A stretch of 64,000 nt of DNA from a virus. Shown here one piece after another: positions 7,392 through 64,000 of this stretch; position 1 is the first letter of the stretch, and each line of letters opens with the position of its first letter. The DNA lies in IMG/VR virus record IMGVR_UViG_3300022903_000002, positions 41,083 to 105,082 of that record. The stretch is one strand, 5' to 3'. A model generated the notes under the pieces. That model did not search any database. It saw nothing but the letters and a program-made list of their open reading frames with translations, and had not been told where the DNA came from. The position numbers were made by a program, and so were the translations under genes.

Positions 7392-10300
7392 GTGGCCGCT
7401 CAAGTCGGTGCTGCTTACATCAAGGTCGCTCCGAACCTCGCCGGTTTCCACCGCACGATCACCAAAGAGCTAAAAAGCCTCAGCCCGCAGGTCAAGAAGA
7501 TCGGGTTGGGGCTCGGCCGGAACCTTGGCGACGGCATCAAGGTCGGCCTCGGCGACCCGCTTTCCGGACCGCTGGATGAGTCCACCAAGAAGCAACGGCA
7601 GAAAGGCCCCAAGCAGGGCGAAGAGGTCGCTGGGGCGTTCGCGAAGGGTTTCGAGAAGCGCCTGAAGGCAGCGTTTCAGGCCCTGCCGAAAGCCGAAATC
7701 GACGCTGATTCCTCACCCGCCGACAAGAAGATCGCGGAGCTTCGGCGACAGCTTGAGGCACTCTCCGGCAAGACCGTCGGTGTCGACATTGACGCGGGTG
7801 CGGCTCTCTCAGAGGTCGCCGCGATCCGGTCCGAGTTGGAGGCACTGGACGGCCACGAGTCGATCCAGGTCGATGTCGACGCCGCTGCGGCCCTGGCGGA
7901 GCTCACCGCGGTACAGGTCGAGGTCGATCGGGTAGATGGGCGCACAGCCCGTGTGAACGTCAACGCGGACGTGTTGCCGGCGTTGGCTGGTATCGGGCTT
8001 GTCAGCACGGCGTTGCTTGGTCTGACGGCGATTCCGATTGCGGCGACGGTCGGTGTGGGGATCCTGTCGCTGGTCGGTCCGCTTGGTGCGGCGGGAGCTG
8101 GGTTCGCTGGTCTTGCTGCGGTCGCGACTCCGTCGATCAACCGTATCGGCGAGGCGCTGAAGGTCCAGAAGCAGGCGCAGGACGCGTCGACGGGTAGTGC
8201 CGCGCAGGCCGCGGCGGCGAACAAGAAGCTCGCCGCGACGATGGCGGCTCTGTCGCCTGCTGAGCGCGACGTGCTCAAGTCGTGGAACGGGCTGCGGACG
8301 GCGTTCACGGGCTGGGCGAAGGAACTGCAGCCTGCCGTGCTCCCGCTGTTCACGCGCGGCATCAACCTGGTGAAGCAGGCTCTGCCCGGGTTGACGCCGA
8401 TCGTGAAAGGCGCGGCCGGCGCGGTCAACGGTCTCCTCGGGGACGTTACCCGCGCGGCTCAGTCGCCGTTCTGGCGGCAACTACGGACGAATATCACAGG
8501 TCTGGTGCCGACGTCGATCACGGGTTTCGGGAAGATCGCCGGGAACATCGCGACGGGTCTGGCTGGGATCGTGTCCGCGTTCTTGCCGTATGCGCCCACG
8601 ATCTTGTCGTTCATCACCCGGATCACCGCGGGTTTCGCCCGTTGGGGCCAGGGGCTGGGGACCTCGAACGGCTTCGCGAAGTTTATGGCCTACGTCAAGC
8701 AGAACGCGCCGCTGATCCTCGAGACGGTCAAGCAGCTCGGCTTGTCGATCGCGCACATTGTGTCGTCGCTGGCACCACTCGGCCCGGCCGTCCTCGGCGG
8801 CTTCGGGCTGCTGCTGCGGTTTATCGGCATGCTGACGCCCGGCGAGATCCAGGCCATCGCGATCGCGTTCACGCTCCTGTCGGTGTCGATCTGGGCCGTG
8901 AATTTCGCGCTTGAAGCCAATCCGGTGGTGCTTGTCATAACGCTGATCGTCGCTCTTGTGGCGGCGGTCGTCTTGGCGTTCAACCACGTGACGTGGTTCC
9001 ACAATGCGGTGGTCGCGGCGTTCAACGGCATCAAGGCCGCGGTCCTGTTCGTCTGGAATTCGGTCTTGAAGCCGACGTTCTCGGCTCTCGTGGTCGCTTT
9101 CCAAGCGATCAGCACGGTCGTGATGTGGCTGTGGCGGAACGTGATCTCCCCGGCATTCAGCGCCATCTCGCTGGCCGCACGGATCCTGTTCGCGATCGTC
9201 GCCGTTGCCGTCCTGGCGCCGCTGGTCATCGCGTTCAACATCCTCAAGGCCGTGATTCTGGCTTGGTGGCACATCGTTGTGGTGCCAGCGTTCGCGGCGG
9301 TGCAGGCGGTCATCGCGGCAGCATGGGTGGTGATCCACCCGATCCTGGCCGCGCTCGGCGTCGCGGTCCGCGCTGTTGGCGCTGCGGCGATGTGGCTGTG
9401 GCACAACGCGATCGTGCCGGCCTGGAACGGCATCAGCCTTGCAATTGCCACCGTGTACAACACGGTGATTCACCCGATCTTGAACGCGCTGAACGCGGTG
9501 CTACGGAACGTGATCGCCCCGGTTTTCCGGTGGATCTACACATCGGTGATCAAGCCGATGTTCCAGGCGGCGGGCGCTGTGATCCGTAACGTCTGGAACA
9601 CCGCTATAAGTCCGGCGTTCAACGCTCTTAAGTCGGGTGTGAACGCGGTCAAGAACGCGTTCTCCACCGCTGTCTCGGCAATCGGGCGAATCTGGAAGGG
9701 CCTGGAGTCCGCCACCAAGAAACCCGTCCAATTTGTTGTCAACACGGTCTACAACAACGGCATCCGTTCCGTGTGGAACAAGGTCGCCGGCCTAGTTCAC
9801 CTGCCTCAGCTGCCTGCGGCGAAGTTCGCTCAGGGCGGTATCTTCCCGGGCTACACGCCCGGCAAGGACCCGTACTCCATGCCGATGGCCGCCTTCTCTG
9901 GCGGCGAGGCCGTCATGCGGCCCGAGTTCACCCGAGCGGTCGGCCCCGGGTTCGTGTACGCGGCGAACAAGGTAGCTCGCAAGCGTGGGCCTGGCGGTGT
10001 CCGGGATTTCCTCGCGAACGGTGAGATGAAGTTCGCGACGGGCGGGATCCTGCCCGGACGGCATGTGGCGGCATTCGCGAATGGCGGCATCATCGGAGGG
10101 ATCCTCGGGGCCGTCAAGCGTGCCAGCAGTCTCGTGGTTCGCGGCGCGTCATCGGTCCTCGGCGGGGGTGCGAGCGCGTTCGCGAAGACCGTCCTCAACC
10201 CGATCCTGTCTCGGATCCCGGGGGCGGATTCGCCGTGGGCGCAGGGCATCCTGTCCCTGCCGAAACGGATGATCGATGGGTTCATCTCCTGGCTGCACAC

Positions 10301-12134
10301 AGCCATCGATCCGAAGCTCGGCGGTGACGCGCATGGTGTTGTCGCCGCAGCGAAGAAATACATCGGTATCGGCGACGATAGAGGACCTAACAACAACATC
10401 TTCAGCCGCTGGTGGGGAATGCCGGGCGGGCCTTGGTGCTTCGCGGCCGGAACACTTGTGGACACCCCACAAGGCTTGGTCCCGATCGAGAACCTCAAGG
10501 TCGGCGACCCGGTCTACACCGGAACCGGCAATGTCCAGCGGGTGTCGTGTCTGTACAGGAGGCAGAAAGAGCTGTGGCGCGTCGTCGCCATGGGAATGCC
10601 CGAGACCTTCACGACCGAAGACCATCCGTATCTTGTGCGTAAGCGCCTCGCTGGGCGGAAGCGGGCGTTTGCGGAGCCGCAGCGCACATCGGTCAAGGAC
10701 CTCCGGAAGGGGGACCTGATCGGCCTTCCGCTCGGGCCGGAAGGAACGACGAAGTACGACCCGGACCTGAGTTACGTCCTCGGCATGTATGTCGCCGACG
10801 GATGCCGGAGCAAGGGCACCGTGATCTTCTCGGATGCCCCTGGTGAGACCGAACGGATCCTAACCGCCCTCAAGCGCGCCGGCTTCGATCGAGCATGGAC
10901 CACACGTAACGGCGGTGGGACGAACACGGGCATCACCGACAGCGGCCTCTACGAACTGTGCGGGAAGTTCGGGGACCTGGCACACAACAAGGAGATCCCC
11001 GATGAAGTCCACGCTTGGGATGCCGCCGCCAGGACCGCTTTCGTAGAGGGGTTCCTCGCCGGGGACGGGCACCTGAACGATGCGATCTCGTGCGGTGGTT
11101 CGCCGCGCTGGGAGGTCACGACCGTTTCACCGAAGTTGGCCGTCGGGCTGGCCAAACTACTGCGGTCCCTGGGGTTCCTCCCGTCGGTGAATGACGGTCG
11201 CCCTGAACAATCGCTGACGATCTGCGGACGGGATACACACTGCCGGAAGCAGTTCAAGCTGAGCTGGCGGAACGCCCATCGCGATGAACTTACCTATCAC
11301 CATTACGTCGAAGAGGACGGTGTCATCTGGGTTCCGGTTCGTGAGGCGGAGCCGACGGGGCGAGTCGAGTGCGTGTATGACATCACCGTTCCTGGCGAGC
11401 ACACATTCATCGCTAACGGAGCGTATTCGTTCAACTGCGCCATGTTCGTTTCTCGTGTCATCAAGGACGCCCACGCCGAGAAGTACTACTCCGGATATCC
11501 GACGGCGCTGGCCGCCGGGTACAACTCGATGCGGCATGTCAGTAGCGGGCAAGCTGGTGACCTCGCCACATACAACGGCGGCGGTCACATCAACATCATC
11601 GAGAAACCCGCTGGCGGGGCGTACATGACGATCGGCGGGAACCAGAACGCGCTCGTACAGCGCGGTATCCGGTCTCCCGGCCTGATTTTGCGCCCGGCGT
11701 TCGCGAACGGCGGGATCATCGGCCGAGAAGCGCAGCGCCTGTTCAAGCACGACGCACCGCGGCAGATCGACAAGCACGAACTGCAGACGCCGATGGTGCA
11801 ACTCATGCGTTCGCTGCCGTCCGGGCAGATGAGCAACGTTGTCCGCGCGATCACGAAGAAGCACCTCACCGTCGCGAACGCCGGCGTCTACGACGACGGA
11901 GGTGTTATTGCCCCTGGGTTGAACCTTGTCGCGAACGCGTCACGAAAACCGGAAGCGCTGCTGAGCAACGCGCAGTGGCGTGGCATCACCGAGGCCGCCG
12001 CTGGTGGCGACACGCACTATCACGCGCACCTGGACGAGATGACGCAGGCGGCCTACGGCACGCAGATCCGCTCGACATTCCACGCGATGGAAACCCAGCG
12101 GGCCATGAAAGAGCGCATCGGACGGAGGCGCTGA
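7392..12134 (+). CDS. Tape measure protein with C-terminal CHAP peptidase domain, interrupted by an intein
   Basis: 1580 residues (about 1247 after splicing). N-terminal helical/basic region, several hydrophobic segments around residues 200-260 and 470-680, and repeated Trp motifs (MWLWRN, MWLWHN, VWNxxxxPxFxA) typical of siphophage tape measures that set tail length and enter the cell membrane. Near the C-terminus a CHAP-type amidase/peptidase domain is split: GGPW at 1012-1015 and CAMFVSRV from 1349, then GGGHINIIEKP supplying the His. The intein occupies 1016-1348. The CHAP domain probably helps cell-wall penetration on DNA entry. Start GTG 7392 follows GGGGGTGG. Confidence 0.85.
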   Translation: MAAQVGAAYIKVAPNLAGFHRTITKELKSLSPQVKKIGLGLGRNLGDGIKVGLGDPLSGPLDESTKKQRQKGPKQGEEVAGAFAKGFEKRLKAAFQALPKAEIDADSSPADKKIAELRRQLEALSGKTVGVDIDAGAALSEVAAIRSELEALDGHESIQVDVDAAAALAELTAVQVEVDRVDGRTARVNVNADVLPALAGIGLVSTALLGLTAIPIAATVGVGILSLVGPLGAAGAGFAGLAAVATPSINRIGEALKVQKQAQDASTGSAAQAAAANKKLAATMAALSPAERDVLKSWNGLRTAFTGWAKELQPAVLPLFTRGINLVKQALPGLTPIVKGAAGAVNGLLGDVTRAAQSPFWRQLRTNITGLVPTSITGFGKIAGNIATGLAGIVSAFLPYAPTILSFITRITAGFARWGQGLGTSNGFAKFMAYVKQNAPLILETVKQLGLSIAHIVSSLAPLGPAVLGGFGLLLRFIGMLTPGEIQAIAIAFTLLSVSIWAVNFALEANPVVLVITLIVALVAAVVLAFNHVTWFHNAVVAAFNGIKAAVLFVWNSVLKPTFSALVVAFQAISTVVMWLWRNVISPAFSAISLAARILFAIVAVAVLAPLVIAFNILKAVILAWWHIVVVPAFAAVQAVIAAAWVVIHPILAALGVAVRAVGAAAMWLWHNAIVPAWNGISLAIATVYNTVIHPILNALNAVLRNVIAPVFRWIYTSVIKPMFQAAGAVIRNVWNTAISPAFNALKSGVNAVKNAFSTAVSAIGRIWKGLESATKKPVQFVVNTVYNNGIRSVWNKVAGLVHLPQLPAAKFAQGGIFPGYTPGKDPYSMPMAAFSGGEAVMRPEFTRAVGPGFVYAANKVARKRGPGGVRDFLANGEMKFATGGILPGRHVAAFANGGIIGGILGAVKRASSLVVRGASSVLGGGASAFAKTVLNPILSRIPGADSPWAQGILSLPKRMIDGFISWLHTAIDPKLGGDAHGVVAAAKKYIGIGDDRGPNNNIFSRWWGMPGGPWCFAAGTLVDTPQGLVPIENLKVGDPVYTGTGNVQRVSCLYRRQKELWRVVAMGMPETFTTEDHPYLVRKRLAGRKRAFAEPQRTSVKDLRKGDLIGLPLGPEGTTKYDPDLSYVLGMYVADGCRSKGTVIFSDAPGETERILTALKRAGFDRAWTTRNGGGTNTGITDSGLYELCGKFGDLAHNKEIPDEVHAWDAAARTAFVEGFLAGDGHLNDAISCGGSPRWEVTTVSPKLAVGLAKLLRSLGFLPSVNDGRPEQSLTICGRDTHCRKQFKLSWRNAHRDELTYHHYVEEDGVIWVPVREAEPTGRVECVYDITVPGEHTFIANGAYSFNCAMFVSRVIKDAHAEKYYSGYPTALAAGYNSMRHVSSGQAGDLATYNGGGHINIIEKPAGGAYMTIGGNQNALVQRGIRSPGLILRPAFANGGIIGREAQRLFKHDAPRQIDKHELQTPMVQLMRSLPSGQMSNVVRAITKKHLTVANAGVYDDGGVIAPGLNLVANASRKPEALLSNAQWRGITEAAAGGDTHYHAHLDEMTQAAYGTQIRSTFHAMETQRAMKERIGRRR
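10437..11435 (+). mobile_element. Intein with LAGLIDADG homing endonuclease inside the tape measure gene
   Basis: 333 residues. It starts at C1016 (block A: CFAAGTLVDTPQGLVPIENL), has block B (TTEDHPYLV, with the T-x-x-H pattern), two LAGLIDADG motifs (LSYVLGMYVADG at intein 111-122; FVEGFLAGDGHL at 202-213), block F (VYDITVPGEHTFIANG) and ends SFN before extein Cys1349. The penultimate intein residue is Phe, not the usual His, while block F keeps its His. Splicing restores PW-CAMF, so the +1 nucleophile is also the predicted catalytic cysteine of the CHAP domain. The bounds are set by these motifs. Confidence 0.9.
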
Positions 12135-48758: not shown

Positions 48759-48890
48759 ATGGGCGCACACGGCGGCGGTGGCAACTCGGACGGCAAAGGC
48801 GGGGACGGGAACAACCCGCGAGGTGGCTCCCACAGCGGCGGTTCCGGATCCGGCGGTAACGCCGGCGACGGCAACAAGCCCGGCAAGTGA
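48759..48890 (+). CDS. Gly-rich 43-residue peptide, candidate RiPP precursor
   Basis: ATG 48759 with GGGAGGG upstream. 19 of 43 residues are Gly, five are Asn; there is no Cys and hardly any hydrophobic residue. It holds three Asp-Gly pairs (SDGK, GDGN, GDGN), the dipeptide most prone to aspartimide formation. The stop overlaps the start of the PIMT-like methyltransferase (GTGA), so peptide and enzyme are made together. This is the layout of imiditide-type clusters, in which a PIMT homologue installs aspartimide in a short peptide. Lack of a clear leader/core split is a caution. Confidence 0.55.
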   Translation: MGAHGGGGNSDGKGGDGNNPRGGSHSGGSGSGGNAGDGNKPGK

Positions 48891-50059
48891 CACCTGGCGA
48901 CCTCGCCGCACGCATCGACCGCCTGTGCGACCAGCTCGTCTCCAGCGGGGATCTACGAAGCCCTGTCTGGCGGGCTGCATTCCACGCGGTCCCGCGGCAC
49001 CTGTTCGTCCCTGACAGGGCCTGGGCTTCCCCGAACGGCCCCGAAGCCGGCTACTCGATCGACCGTTCCTCCGACATGGACGGCTGGCTCGACGCCGTGT
49101 ACTCCGACGCCGCGATCATCACCCAACGCAACGACGGGCGAGCGGACGTCAACGGCGGTGGTGAACCGTCGAGTTCATGCTCCGCGCCGGCGACCGTCGC
49201 AGAGTTCCTCGAGTATCTGACCCCGGACGACTTCAACCGGGTCCTCGAGATCGGCACAGGAACCGGCTGGACTGCGGCGCTACTGTCGCACCGGGTCCGG
49301 GCCTGCAACGTCACATCCATCGATATCGATCCGGTCGTGTCCGAGACGGCAGCGAAGAACCTCGCGGAGACGGACTACCATCCGCGGCTGATCGTGGGCG
49401 ACGGGACGGCCGGCCACGGGTCCGGGGCGCCGTTCGACCGGGTTCATGTGGCGGTGGGCGTCGCGGACATCCCTCATGCGTGGGTCGACCAGACACGCCC
49501 GGGTGGGGTGATCGTGTTGCCGTTCATGCCCGGGTACGGCTTCGGGTGGCTCGCCCGCCTGCACGTCCTCGGTGACGGCACGGCGGTGGGCCGGTTCGTT
49601 GGGTCTGCCGGGTACATGATGCTCCGCGGGCAGCGTCCGGCATGCCGGGCGATCCCAGATCTGCCGAAGGCCGGGCTGGTCGAGTCGACTACGCGACTGG
49701 ATCCGCGGCGGGTCCACACGGACACGAACGTCGACCTGTTCATCGCTGCGTCGATGCCGGGCGTTCAGGAGCGCCTCTTCTACGGCGACGGTGATGCGGC
49801 GGACGAGTGCACGCTGTGGCTCATCGAGTCGGGTGACACGGGGTCGTGGGCGTCCGTGGACTACGTCCCGGGCCGGGCCGAGTTCGTCGTGGAGCAGTAC
49901 GGTGCGCGCCGTCTGTGGGACGAGGTTGAGGGGACGTACATGCGGTGGCTTGGCTGGGGGCGGCCGGGCATCGAACGGCTCGGGCTAACGGTCTCACCGG
50001 ACGGCCAGTACGTGTGGTTGGACTCCCCGGACCGCGTGTTGACGCCGGGTGGGGGATGA
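48887..50059 (+). CDS. PIMT-like O-methyltransferase (aspartyl)
   Basis: 390 residues, GTG start coupled to the peptide gene. Residues 1-200 match protein-L-isoaspartate methyltransferase: AVPRHLFVPDRAW, SAPATVAEFLEYL (substrate loop), and the SAM motif VLEIGTGTGWTAALL (119-133) followed by VTSIDIDP. The C-terminal 190 residues are an extra domain absent from housekeeping PIMT (about 210 residues) and present in the RiPP-associated homologues. Likely methylates Asp in the upstream peptide, leading to aspartimide/isoAsp. Confidence 0.75.
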   Translation: MTPGDLAARIDRLCDQLVSSGDLRSPVWRAAFHAVPRHLFVPDRAWASPNGPEAGYSIDRSSDMDGWLDAVYSDAAIITQRNDGRADVNGGGEPSSSCSAPATVAEFLEYLTPDDFNRVLEIGTGTGWTAALLSHRVRACNVTSIDIDPVVSETAAKNLAETDYHPRLIVGDGTAGHGSGAPFDRVHVAVGVADIPHAWVDQTRPGGVIVLPFMPGYGFGWLARLHVLGDGTAVGRFVGSAGYMMLRGQRPACRAIPDLPKAGLVESTTRLDPRRVHTDTNVDLFIAASMPGVQERLFYGDGDAADECTLWLIESGDTGSWASVDYVPGRAEFVVEQYGARRLWDEVEGTYMRWLGWGRPGIERLGLTVSPDGQYVWLDSPDRVLTPGGG

Positions 50060-53788: not shown

Positions 53789-54012
53789 TGCTCCACCGCC
53801 TCGTGGTCGTCGCAGGCGAAGAGCGGGGAGTTGTCAGGCAGCGACCCGATGAACGTCTTCGGTCCGATGAGGGCGCGCTGGCAGTTCGCGTACACGCACC
53901 GCATGCCGGAGCGCTGGGCGAGGGTGAGGTTGGCGGGGTCGATCACTCGGCCTGGTTCGGCGGCCAGCAAACTTGGAGTCATTTCGACTGAGTCGAAAAT
54001 CGCGTCGCTCAC
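53785..54012 (-). CDS. Small zinc-finger-like protein
   Basis: 75 residues with CVYANCQRALIGPKTFIGSLPDNSPLFACDDH, three Cys and one His in a ribbon pattern. Unknown. Confidence 0.5.
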   Translation of the reverse strand: MSDAIFDSVEMTPSLLAAEPGRVIDPANLTLAQRSGMRCVYANCQRALIGPKTFIGSLPDNSPLFACDDHEAVEQ

Positions 54013-54542
54013 GAAGCCACCTCCGTAACAGCTCCCAGTCGCTGCGCTCTCTTGCGCTCGGCTCGCTTACGCTCCCATTCGTTGTGGCACTTGCGGCACT
54101 TCCGCTCGCCGTGCGACCCGAGCTTGATGTTCTCGGGGGTATAGGCATGGCCGGCGGGGCATTCAGTCTTCAGGGTCTGCCAGTTCTTCCGCTGACCCTC
54201 TGTATTTATGCGGCCCCTGTTCACCTCAGGTGTTACTGCACGGAGGTGGAACGGGTTGCAGCAAGACCGGTGAGGGCACCTGTCTCCTGCGACACAACTC
54301 GGATTCCAGCTATGGCAGATGTGGTCGATCTCCAGGCCAGGAGATATCGGTCCCACCATCTGCTCATAGACGAACCGATGTGGCCGGATCGTGGTGGTCT
54401 TTCCGCCACCCAGCCCGATGGAATGGATCCCGTAGCCTCGGCCGTTCTGTGTGCCGAGCCACGGCCAACATTCGTCGGGACCTCGTTTTTGGATCCGGGA
54501 CCAGATCCGGTCCGCGAGTGGGATGCGAGATGCGCGCGACAT
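54009..54542 (-). CDS. HNH endonuclease
   Basis: 177 residues from ATG 54542; the frame stays open another 384 bases but that part is the att region read as protein. Pattern CWPWLGTQNGRGYG, LEIDHICHSWNPSC (His74) and CCNPFHLRAVTPEVN (Asn96, His99) is the HNH fold with paired Cys zinc sites. The C-terminal CPAGHAYTPENIK...CRKCHNEWERKRAERKRAQ is a second zinc module often seen with HNH homing enzymes. First gene of the leftward operon next to the att site. Confidence 0.75.
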   Translation of the reverse strand: MSRASRIPLADRIWSRIQKRGPDECWPWLGTQNGRGYGIHSIGLGGGKTTTIRPHRFVYEQMVGPISPGLEIDHICHSWNPSCVAGDRCPHRSCCNPFHLRAVTPEVNRGRINTEGQRKNWQTLKTECPAGHAYTPENIKLGSHGERKCRKCHNEWERKRAERKRAQRLGAVTEVAS

Positions 54543-54559: not shown

Positions 54560-54797
54560 GGGAGCACGGGGAGCACGGACGTGCTTTTCGGGGGTGCTCT
54601 CGGTCCTCTGCTGTCCGAGCCTGTCCGGTCTCAACCAGGAGATTTAGGGTCTGACCTGCGTGGAGGTTTAGGGAAACCTCGTTCACACCGAAGAGGTCAC
54701 TGGTTCGAACCCAGTATCGCCCACCCAAGGTCAGGCCCGCTTTTCCGGTCAGGACAAGATCGGCTAGAGCGGTTCTCGGGAGCACATCTGGGAGCAC
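54560..54797. other. Attachment site: tRNA-Val(CAC) 3' half flanked by paired arm repeats (attP-like)
   Basis: 54679-54725 equals the 3' part of a tRNA-Val gene: anticodon loop TTCACAC (anticodon CAC), stem, variable loop, T arm GGTTCGAACCC and acceptor strand ATCGCCCACC. No 5' half is present upstream. GGGAGCAC occurs at 54560 and 54569 on the left and at 54778 and 54790 on the right, as expected of integrase arm-binding sites. The integrase gene ends 102 bases to the right of the core. Confidence 0.75.
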
Positions 54798-57743: not shown

Positions 57744-58199
57744 CTAAATGGACCGTTGATCGTCCTCGCTCTGTGTGGTCGTCTCCAGGGTGAACCGGTC
57801 ACCTGGGAGAACCTCGACCTCGCCGTCCCGCTCAACGATGAAAACCGGAACGCTCTCCGGTATGGGGCGACCCTCGGACTCACTCAAAGCTGTGCGTTCT
57901 TGCGCGGTGGGCAGCCGGCAGCTGATGGTGGCACCGGGAAGGATCTTCACGACTACACGCTCCGGCATCTCCAGTACCCGGGACCCTCGGCCGCGCTCCG
58001 TGACGATGAGGCCTTCGCTGCGAAGAACACTCAAGCCTTGCCGGATCGAGACCAGGCTCACGTCATAGCGCTCAGCCAACACCCGCTCGGGTGGGAGTAG
58101 GTGTCCTGGAGTCAGCATGCCGCTCGCGATGGCGCTGCGGATGTCGTCTGCGACCAGGTGGTATAGCGGTCGCCGGAGCGACCGTCCCCTCTGACGCAT
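57744..58199 (-). CDS. GntR-family regulator (KorSA-like)
   Basis: 151 residues. GntR winged helix: PLYHLVADDIRSAIASGMLTPGHLLPPERVLAERYDVSLVSIRQGLSVLRSEGLIVTERGRGSRVL (about 11-76). Short C-terminal effector region. In AICEs and phages such proteins (KorSA type) hold the element in the integrated state. A perfect 16-bp palindrome lies 45 bases before its start. Confidence 0.8.
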   Translation of the reverse strand: MRQRGRSLRRPLYHLVADDIRSAIASGMLTPGHLLPPERVLAERYDVSLVSIRQGLSVLRSEGLIVTERGRGSRVLEMPERVVVKILPGATISCRLPTAQERTALSESEGRPIPESVPVFIVERDGEVEVLPGDRFTLETTTQSEDDQRSI

Positions 58200-58485: not shown

Positions 58486-59349
58486 TTACGCGAGCGCAGC
58501 AATGAACTCTGCGCTTTTACTTGGTGTAAGAGCAGCGTCGGTGACGCTGCCCCATGCGAGTCTAAAGCGCTGAACCGCCGTTTTACTCTCCGAGTAGGCA
58601 CTTCCGGACAAATTCTCGGTATGTACCACATCGGGATAGTCTTCATGGTCGAACTCGAAAATGATGAACGGGCCGCCAAGCCCAGCGTGTGCGCCTGCAC
58701 TGTACGGCAGCACTTGAAGGGTGACGTTCTCACGTTGCCCCATTTCCATCAGGTGCCTGAGTTGCGCACGCATAACATCGGTACCGCCAACCTGCTGGCG
58801 TATCGCTGTCTCGCCTAGCACAGCGTGCAATTGTGGCGGATTTATTCGGTCAAGGATGGCGCGGCGTTCACGGCGAGCACGGACGCGCCGTTCGAGATCG
58901 TCGGTCTCCCACGTGTCCGGTGCCGCGAGTCCGTCTGCGAACAGCGCGCGAGCGTAGGCGTCGGTTTGCAGGAGGCCCGGCACGACCTGAGACTGAAATG
59001 ACAGGATCTGGTGTGCTTCGTCTTCTGTGACGGCGAACACGTCATGGAGGACGTCGCCGTATTCCAGCCACCAGCCCGATCGGAATGCCTCGGCAGCGAG
59101 GTCGAGGAGTTCGCGTTGTTGATCGAACGTCAGGTGGTAGCGGTTGAAGAGCGCCTTCATGGTCTCTTGGTCGCTCTGGTGGAGGCCTCTTTCGATGCGG
59201 CTCACGGTTGAGGCGTTGACGTCGATGTCGGCCGCGACCTGCGCAAGGTCCAGTCCGAATTGTTCACGGGTTGCTTTGAGGATCGCGCCGAGACGGCGGG
59301 CCTTAATGGTAGGGGTGTGCCCTCGCGCCATGGCTGTTGAGTCTGTCAT
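58486..59349 (-). CDS. Scr1/DUF5753-family XRE regulator
   Basis: 287 residues. N-terminal HTH (RLGAILKATREQFGLDLAQVAADIDVNASTVSRIERGLHQSD), then the DUF5753 body (AEAFRSGWWLEYGDVLHDVFAVTEDEAHQILSFQSQVVPGLLQTDAYARALFADG ... GPFIIFEFDHEDYPDVVHTENLSGS). This family regulates development and antibiotics in Streptomyces and acts with DUF397 partners. As an element gene it is a candidate immunity repressor. Tandem 20-bp repeats lie before its start. Confidence 0.8.
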   Translation of the reverse strand: MTDSTAMARGHTPTIKARRLGAILKATREQFGLDLAQVAADIDVNASTVSRIERGLHQSDQETMKALFNRYHLTFDQQRELLDLAAEAFRSGWWLEYGDVLHDVFAVTEDEAHQILSFQSQVVPGLLQTDAYARALFADGLAAPDTWETDDLERRVRARRERRAILDRINPPQLHAVLGETAIRQQVGGTDVMRAQLRHLMEMGQRENVTLQVLPYSAGAHAGLGGPFIIFEFDHEDYPDVVHTENLSGSAYSESKTAVQRFRLAWGSVTDAALTPSKSAEFIAALA

Positions 59350-59905: not shown

Positions 59906-60466
59906 TCAAGCCTTCTTCCGCCGTGTCGGACCTTGCTTCGCGCGGCGGGCGGCCAGTTCCCGAAGCATCAGGACCGCGCCAGCTACCTCTGCCGGCGCGT
60001 AGTCCATATTGCGGAGCATGGTGACTGTCGCGTGCTCGTTGTCGGAGAGCTTGCCGAGACGCTTGATGGCCTGCTCCATGGTGACGCCGGTGTCGACGAC
60101 GACGTCCGCGTGCAGGCGTTGATCGTCGTACTGCTCGACGTGGACGCCCTGTGTTCGTTCGGGGGCTGTGAACTTGACTTGACTCACGTGGAGAACTGGT
60201 TCGGGTAGCTCGCCTGGTTCGGCTAGCCCGGCGAAAACCATCATCTGGCCGAGGCCGTAGCCGAGTGCCTTGCCGATAGCCCGTAGGGCGGGGAGGTCGG
60301 GAACGCGGTCATCGTTGAGGATGCGGGAGATGATCGAAAGAGAGATCCCACTCTTCTTGGCGAGCAGTGTTCGGCCTCCGGCTCGCGGACCGTCGACCTC
60401 GTAACCCTGGCGGAGCATCTCCTCGCGGAGCCATAGCCCGAAGGGCTTTTCTGCTTCGGTGCTCAC
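59906..60466 (-). CDS. XRE-family repressor
   Basis: 186 residues from GTG 60466. HTH LREEMLRQGYEVDGPRAGGRTLLAKKSGISLSIISRILNDDRVPDLPALRAIGKALGYGLGQMMVFAGL, then a helical C-terminal part and a basic tail. Divergent from a small Cro-like gene across GCAAG operators, the usual repressor/cro switch of temperate phages. Confidence 0.75.
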   Translation of the reverse strand: MSTEAEKPFGLWLREEMLRQGYEVDGPRAGGRTLLAKKSGISLSIISRILNDDRVPDLPALRAIGKALGYGLGQMMVFAGLAEPGELPEPVLHVSQVKFTAPERTQGVHVEQYDDQRLHADVVVDTGVTMEQAIKRLGKLSDNEHATVTMLRNMDYAPAEVAGAVLMLRELAARRAKQGPTRRKKA

Positions 60467-60468
60467 GG

Positions 60469-60633
60469 GCAAGCACTCTAACTTGCTTGACAGCATGAAG
60501 TCGATGACTTGCTCACGAGCAAGCTAGGGTTCCCTACCTGCATGTATGGCTCGCCTGCGGATTTACCCAGCTTGTCAGAGGGATCTGCAGGTCAAAAGAT
60601 CTCCGCTGAATCCCTTGCATGCTCGACAGCAAG
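60469..60633. promoter_or_regulatory. Three GCAAG/CTTGC operator sites in the lysogeny switch
   Basis: GCAAG...CTTGC at 60469-60486, the perfect CTTGCTC-AC-GAGCAAG at 60508-60523, and CTTGC...GCAAG at 60614-60633. A shared GCTyGACAGCA element occurs at 60485 and 60621. They fill the gap between the XRE repressor and the Cro-like gene. Confidence 0.65.
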
Positions 60634-63735: not shown

Positions 63736-63884
63736 GCGGCTTCCGACGCCTGGTCAAGGGCTGCCGCCACGCCCGCCTGATCTCGCTGAAGCGCGAGTAC
63801 TCGCCCGGCTTCACGCCCCGGCACGCGAAGCCCGCCCCGGTCGAGGGGTCCACGCTCACACCAGAGATGGGACTCGCGGCATGA
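63732..63884 (+). CDS. 50-residue basic protein
   Basis: GTG 63732 (GTGA). MSGFRRLVKGCRHARLISLKREYSPGFTPRHAKPAPVEGSTLTPEMGLAA. Stop overlaps the ATPase start (ATGA). Unknown. Confidence 0.5.
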   Translation: MSGFRRLVKGCRHARLISLKREYSPGFTPRHAKPAPVEGSTLTPEMGLAA

Positions 63885-64000
63885 CCGAGATGGATTTCGT
63901 CGACGCCACTCCCGAAGCGGAGAAGGCGCGCATCGCACTGCAGGGCCCGTCCGGCTGCGGGAAGACATGGTCCGCGCTGCGGATCGCCGGCGGTCTCGGC
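63881..64000 (+). CDS. P-loop ATPase, N-terminal part (partial)
   Basis: Runs off the right edge after 40 residues. RIALQGPSGCGKTWSALRIAGGLG is a Walker A of the AAA/RecA-like type found in phage recombination/replication ATPases (Sak4-like and related). The gene order (early, after coiled-coil protein) fits. Exact family needs the rest of the gene. Confidence 0.65.
   Translation, partial: MTEMDFVDATPEAEKARIALQGPSGCGKTWSALRIAGGLG

Follow-up and report, generated by a model that had tools for sequence, protein, structure and literature searches.

The window, a stretch of 64,000 nucleotides, corresponds to bases 41083–105082 of a 105082-base virus record (IMGVR_UViG_3300022903_000002) that is classed as linear. 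At positions 54560–54797 it holds a tRNA-like core flanked by short direct repeats, and the features at this locus and at the end of the window are as follows.

54009..54542, minus strand: HNH endonuclease gene, left of P1 (PHROG match, longer frame; the start codon is our choice)
54560..54567, plus strand: P1, left arm-type repeat GGGAGCAC (from the sequence, its layout compared with relatives)
54569..54576, plus strand: P2, left arm-type repeat GGGAGCAC, 9 bp from P1
54652..54656, no strand assigned: left GGTCA box, TGACC on the plus strand (from its recurrence in relatives)
54679..54725, plus strand: predicted attP core, 47 bp (sequence match to the 3' part of tRNA-Val(CAC); sub-threshold Rfam tRNA match)
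54729..54733, no strand assigned: right GGTCA box (from its recurrence in relatives)
54778..54785, plus strand: P3, right arm-type repeat GGGAGCAC (from the sequence)
54790..54797, plus strand: P4, right arm-type repeat GGGAGCAC, 12 bp from P3
54827..56308, minus strand: tyrosine integrase gene, 493 aa (open frame; Pfam and PHROG matches)
63881..64000, plus strand: start of an AAA-ATPase gene, 40 codons, broken by the record end (the remainder opens the record, outside the window)

Phage-type genes flank the repeats on both sides, with the HNH endonuclease on the left and the integrase, whose gene ends 30 bp right of P4, on the right. Other genes of the record specify a large terminase subunit, a head protease, a major tail protein, a tape measure protein, and minor tail proteins, so the record is that of a tailed phage. 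The integrase matched PF14659 above and PF00589 below the Pfam cut-offs, as well as PHROG integrase families; the Pfam matches covered only residues 69–121 and 405–448, and none was to an arm-binding model. In an alignment, residues R217, H408, R411, H434, and Y443, which we take to be the catalytic residues of a tyrosine recombinase, were invariant across eight integrase relatives. The phage collection contained no integrase relative at an E value of 1e-5, and a search of ten ORFs for an excisionase gave no clear Pfam match. Regulators of the GntR, HTH + DUF5753, and HTH_3 types are encoded on the minus strand near the integrase gene (57744–58199, 58486–59349, and 59906–60496, respectively) and are candidates for lysogeny control.

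The sequence-only reading had taken the core for the 3' half of a tRNA-Val(CAC) gene, and comparison with host genomes bore this out. The core runs from the 5' side of the anticodon stem to the 3' end of the tRNA. Its 46-bp form occurred exactly in at least 119 contig stretches, and among the matches listed there were 129 occurrences, all preceded by the 5' part of the tRNA. Integration was modelled in silico at 120 of these 129 host sites (the other nine lay too close to the end of the locus), and the 47th base was identical at all 120. ARAGORN recognized tRNA-Val in 120 of the 120 modelled attL sequences, on the integrase side, and in 0 of the 120 modelled attR sequences at the opposite junction. 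Because the tRNA is rebuilt at the modelled integrase-side junctions, the host would keep it upon integration. The 47-bp core is present once in the window, and its final 30 nt once in the 105-kb record. The search for a host through the core did not identify one, because the core is common to many actinobacterial genera among the matches listed. A longer string that included 5' phage bases had no match in the genome contigs, and matches of the tRNA remnant to plasmids covered no more than 55% of the query. A relative's copy of the core matched 31 records in the phage collection, none of which carried an actinobacterial name in a tally of first words.

According to the available text of PMC10865867, cores of 30–45 bp usually rebuild the tRNA, putative arm-type site pairs flank the cores described there, and phages with tRNA-dependent lysogeny share about 10 bp with the host and encode a tRNA. 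Under the latter scheme, the phage would break the host tRNA and supply its own, and the Rfam tRNA match at 54662–54723, which takes in phage sequence on the 5' side, could be seen in that light. However, this match scored 21.6 bits, below the gathering cut-off of 29 bits, ARAGORN called no tRNA gene in the window or in the whole 105-kb record (searched in six pieces), the shared sequence is 47 bp rather than about 10 bp, and the tRNA is rebuilt in the models, so that we give tRNA-dependent lysogeny almost no credence here.

The two copies of GGGAGCAC previously noted on each side of the core were confirmed at the positions listed above. All four lie on the same strand and are identical over 8 bp, and measured from the T-loop their offsets are −142, −133, +76, and +88. 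The window contains six copies in total against 4.5 expected, and six were reached in 27 of 100 shuffles, which is the chance level; the clustering of the copies, not their number, is the noteworthy feature. We defined a quad as two pairs of one 7-mer with a spacing of 9–13 bp within pairs and 180–280 bp between them. No quad appeared in 2000 shuffles of the 1000-bp region or in 786 stretches of actinobacterial chromosomes. In the record and a 94.5-kb relative record (G001, whose integrase is 83% identical), quads were found in two of 791 stretches, both of them the attP site itself, read on the other strand; as a quad, the repeats are beyond chance. The left pair, with its unusual 9-bp spacing, might suggest a decayed or inactive attP that has fallen out of use. 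This is very improbable, because the core matches intact host genes perfectly at all 120 sites, the four repeats agree in every one of their 8 bp, and the integrase frame is open and retains its catalytic residues.

From the presence of both arms, the earlier reading had proposed an unintegrated attP, and the ends of the record support this. The AAA-ATPase gene is split across them, and in comparison with gp69 of Gordonia phage Horus about 17 residues (approximately 50 nt) are absent between the two pieces. G001 is largely collinear with the record after circular permutation, with a few stray matches, and passes from DNA resembling the record's end into DNA resembling its start; no recognizable copy of the split ATPase was found in it. 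Both ends of G001 fall within the attP-holding interval of the record, its start exactly at the integrase stop codon and its end exactly at an ATG, about 0.2 kb beyond DNA that matches the record about 3.6 kb left of attP. With both ends at gene boundaries, G001 has the appearance of a trimmed provirus. Since the ends of the record split one gene and G001 is permuted relative to it, the record corresponds to a nearly closed circle with attP inside, and the sequenced DNA was most likely virion DNA or excised circular DNA. In a tandem pair of prophages, recombination leaves both arms at the inner junction as well, so an intact attP alone is no proof of free DNA. The locus might thus be a real junction between two like prophages, integrated but attP-like in appearance; with both arm pairs it would be indistinguishable from a circle by sequence alone, and the linear class of the record would suit it. 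However, the searches that had been suggested for such a case revealed neither an intact chromosomal tRNA-Val (ARAGORN) nor a second core in the record, and the record ends are nearly adjacent within one gene. In view of these observations, we regard a tandem pair as improbable.

In viral contigs, an integrase alignment of eight rows located 44 loci with an integrase relative, including G001 (L171), as against two loci and poor patterns from one of two rows. Quads were sought, blind to tRNAs, in the 30 of these 44 loci with at least 300 bp beyond the integrase match. Five contained one (L174, L184, L185, L193, and L213), and L181, although excluded by the complexity filter, also has one, so that six viral relatives carry quads and 24 of the 30 loci do not. 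In all six, tRNA sequence lies between the repeat pairs: the T-loop pattern revealed it in L174, L181, and L213, and visual inspection in L184, L185, and L193, where its orientation is reversed; ARAGORN called a whole tRNA-Pro in L184. The offsets from the T-loop were −147, −136, +82, and +93 in L174, −145, −134, +94, and +105 in L181, and −147, −136, +83, and +94 in L213. The repeat sequences differ from locus to locus, and the tRNA targets are other than that of the window. The same tRNA-Val half as in the window was found in L175. In this locus and in L192, both sides carry a pair, with different sequences on the left and on the right; L187 is without a right pair. Clear pairs in the relatives compared are spaced by 11 or 12 bp, versus 9 and 12 bp in the window.

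In chromosomes, integrase relatives at an E value of 1e-40 or better were found in 5 of 394 genomes (one class), at six loci. Near the integrase gene, ARAGORN identified tRNA-Val(CAC) in L146, L148, and L149, in each case intact and 3' of the gene, and tRNA-Pro in L150; it identified no tRNA in the fetched flanks of L145 and L147. All four tRNA-bearing loci have a direct-repeat pair, 11 bp apart, to the right of the tRNA. The shortest repeats measure 6 nt (L150) and the longest at least 9 nt (L161, the site of L148), and such a right-hand pair is the layout expected of attL. No attR partner of L146, L148, or L149 could be placed near the attL; the additional copies of the tRNA end were located either on different contigs or at a distance of about 2 Mb. 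Among L152, L153, L155, and L158, ARAGORN found only a short tRNA-Val, in L153, and like left repeats were seen only in L155 (a 6-mer) and L158 (at a different offset). In G010, the genome of L052 (titled Actinoallomurus purpureus), tRNA-Val ends occur at L162, L166, L168, and L169, near repeated GGGAGCC or GGGAGCAG sequences that resemble GGGAGCAC by eye.

The organization of the window resembles that of the cluster J mycobacteriophages (Omega and BAKA), which have an attP in tRNA-Leu and for which plasmid integration was shown (PMC3706429). As far as the available text of that paper goes, their attP also lies 3' of the integrase gene, with a 44-bp tRNA core at a distance of about 100 bp from the gene end and direct arm-type repeat pairs on both sides of the core. 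The BAKA offsets from the T-loop are −146, −135, +71, and +82, close in pattern to those given above for the window, but the tRNA and the arm sequence are different. Membership in cluster J (Omegavirus), which would call for similarity at the DNA level and a close integrase relative, was rejected: the BAKA and window integrases share 24.8% identity over 113 aa only, and in a megablast search with the 4.1-kb region the phage collection gave a single phage record, over 55 nt. Variants of the arm-site layout appear in the available text of PMC3203893; unlike the window, the cluster K phage CrimD has an inverted right pair and Pixie has six sites. A Streptomyces element in tRNA-Val, AICE03, is described in the available text of PMC9513070, but it is a conjugative element and not a phage. 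The viral contig L004 (IMGVR_UViG_3300037419_000304) shares the tRNA-Val core with the window over 46 bp and carries four direct repeats, whose offsets are −136, −125, +85, and +96, but its arms are GAGCGGCA on both sides and its integrase has no clear similarity to that of the window (best tblastn piece, E = 0.018). Of the traits of a lambda-type attP in a tRNA 3' end, the window has the recombinase residues, a core that rebuilds the tRNA in the models, and arm-type repeats on both sides; the site, though well preserved, is an ordinary attP of a known kind.

Positions 54560–54797 very probably represent an entire attP, belonging to a temperate, tailed actinophage with a genome of some 105 kb. 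The neighboring integrase would recombine this site with the host tRNA-Val(CAC) gene, its N-terminal part presumably binding the four GGGAGCAC repeats, and the predicted place of strand exchange is the left end of the core, in the region of the anticodon loop. At attL, on the integrase side, the phage would provide a replacement 3' half that keeps the tRNA functional, and at attR the displaced 3' half of the host would mark the other end. Against this stand the odd arm spacings, the 24 of 30 loci without a quad, the pairs of L175, L192, and L187, and the tRNA results for L145, L147, and L150. A likely integration target and the boundaries of attP are hereby set for a group of uncultured actinophages, with an integrase–attP pair predicted to be directed at tRNA-Val(CAC), and the aligned relatives reveal which parts of such attachment sites are variable and which are constant.

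Of all features of the site, the GGTCA box that recurs next to the core is the least explained. In the window, both boxes lie within an inverted repeat (54647–54657 / 54728–54738). GGTCA or TGACC was present 22–62 nt right of the T-loop in 7/7 viral sites, 4/4 chromosomal attL, and 3/4 half sites, and 35–105 nt left of it in 6/7 viral sites (L192 being without) and 4/4 half sites, against chances per site of approximately 7% and 12–13%, respectively; the motif had been spotted in the same sequences before counting, and the rows are non-independent. The viral sites counted were the window, L174, L175, L181, L187, L192, and L213, with L184, L185, L188, L193, and others of the 44 lying outside the count. 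Among the matches listed, 19 of 129 host tRNA-Val genes have GGTCA or TGACC within 40 nt downstream. A box is present to the right but not to the left in BAKA, and to the left but not to the right, outside the core, in L004. The motif also accompanies the tRNA core despite different targets in the window, L174, L175, L181, L187, L213, L163, L161, L159, and L150. It is conceivable, though rather doubtful, that attP sites of this integrase family have a fixed frame, with repeat pairs at about −146/−135 and at +71 to +105 from the T-loop and a GGTCA box per side next to the core, in which the tRNA target and the arms are freely swapped and GGTCA forms a third class of protein site. If so, the boxes might serve a directionality factor or extra integrase contacts. 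Because some loci are without quads and BAKA and L004 have a box on one side only, the odds are slightly lower both for this fixed frame and for the attP interpretation given above.

Two further genes of the window were recorded. The tape measure frame (7392–12134, 1580 aa) contains a Hint domain, with weak intein and LAGLIDADG matches past residue 1010, and this part is probably an intein, judging from these domain matches. In addition, a phage-borne gene resembling protein-isoaspartate methyltransferase (PF01135) lies at 48887–50059.
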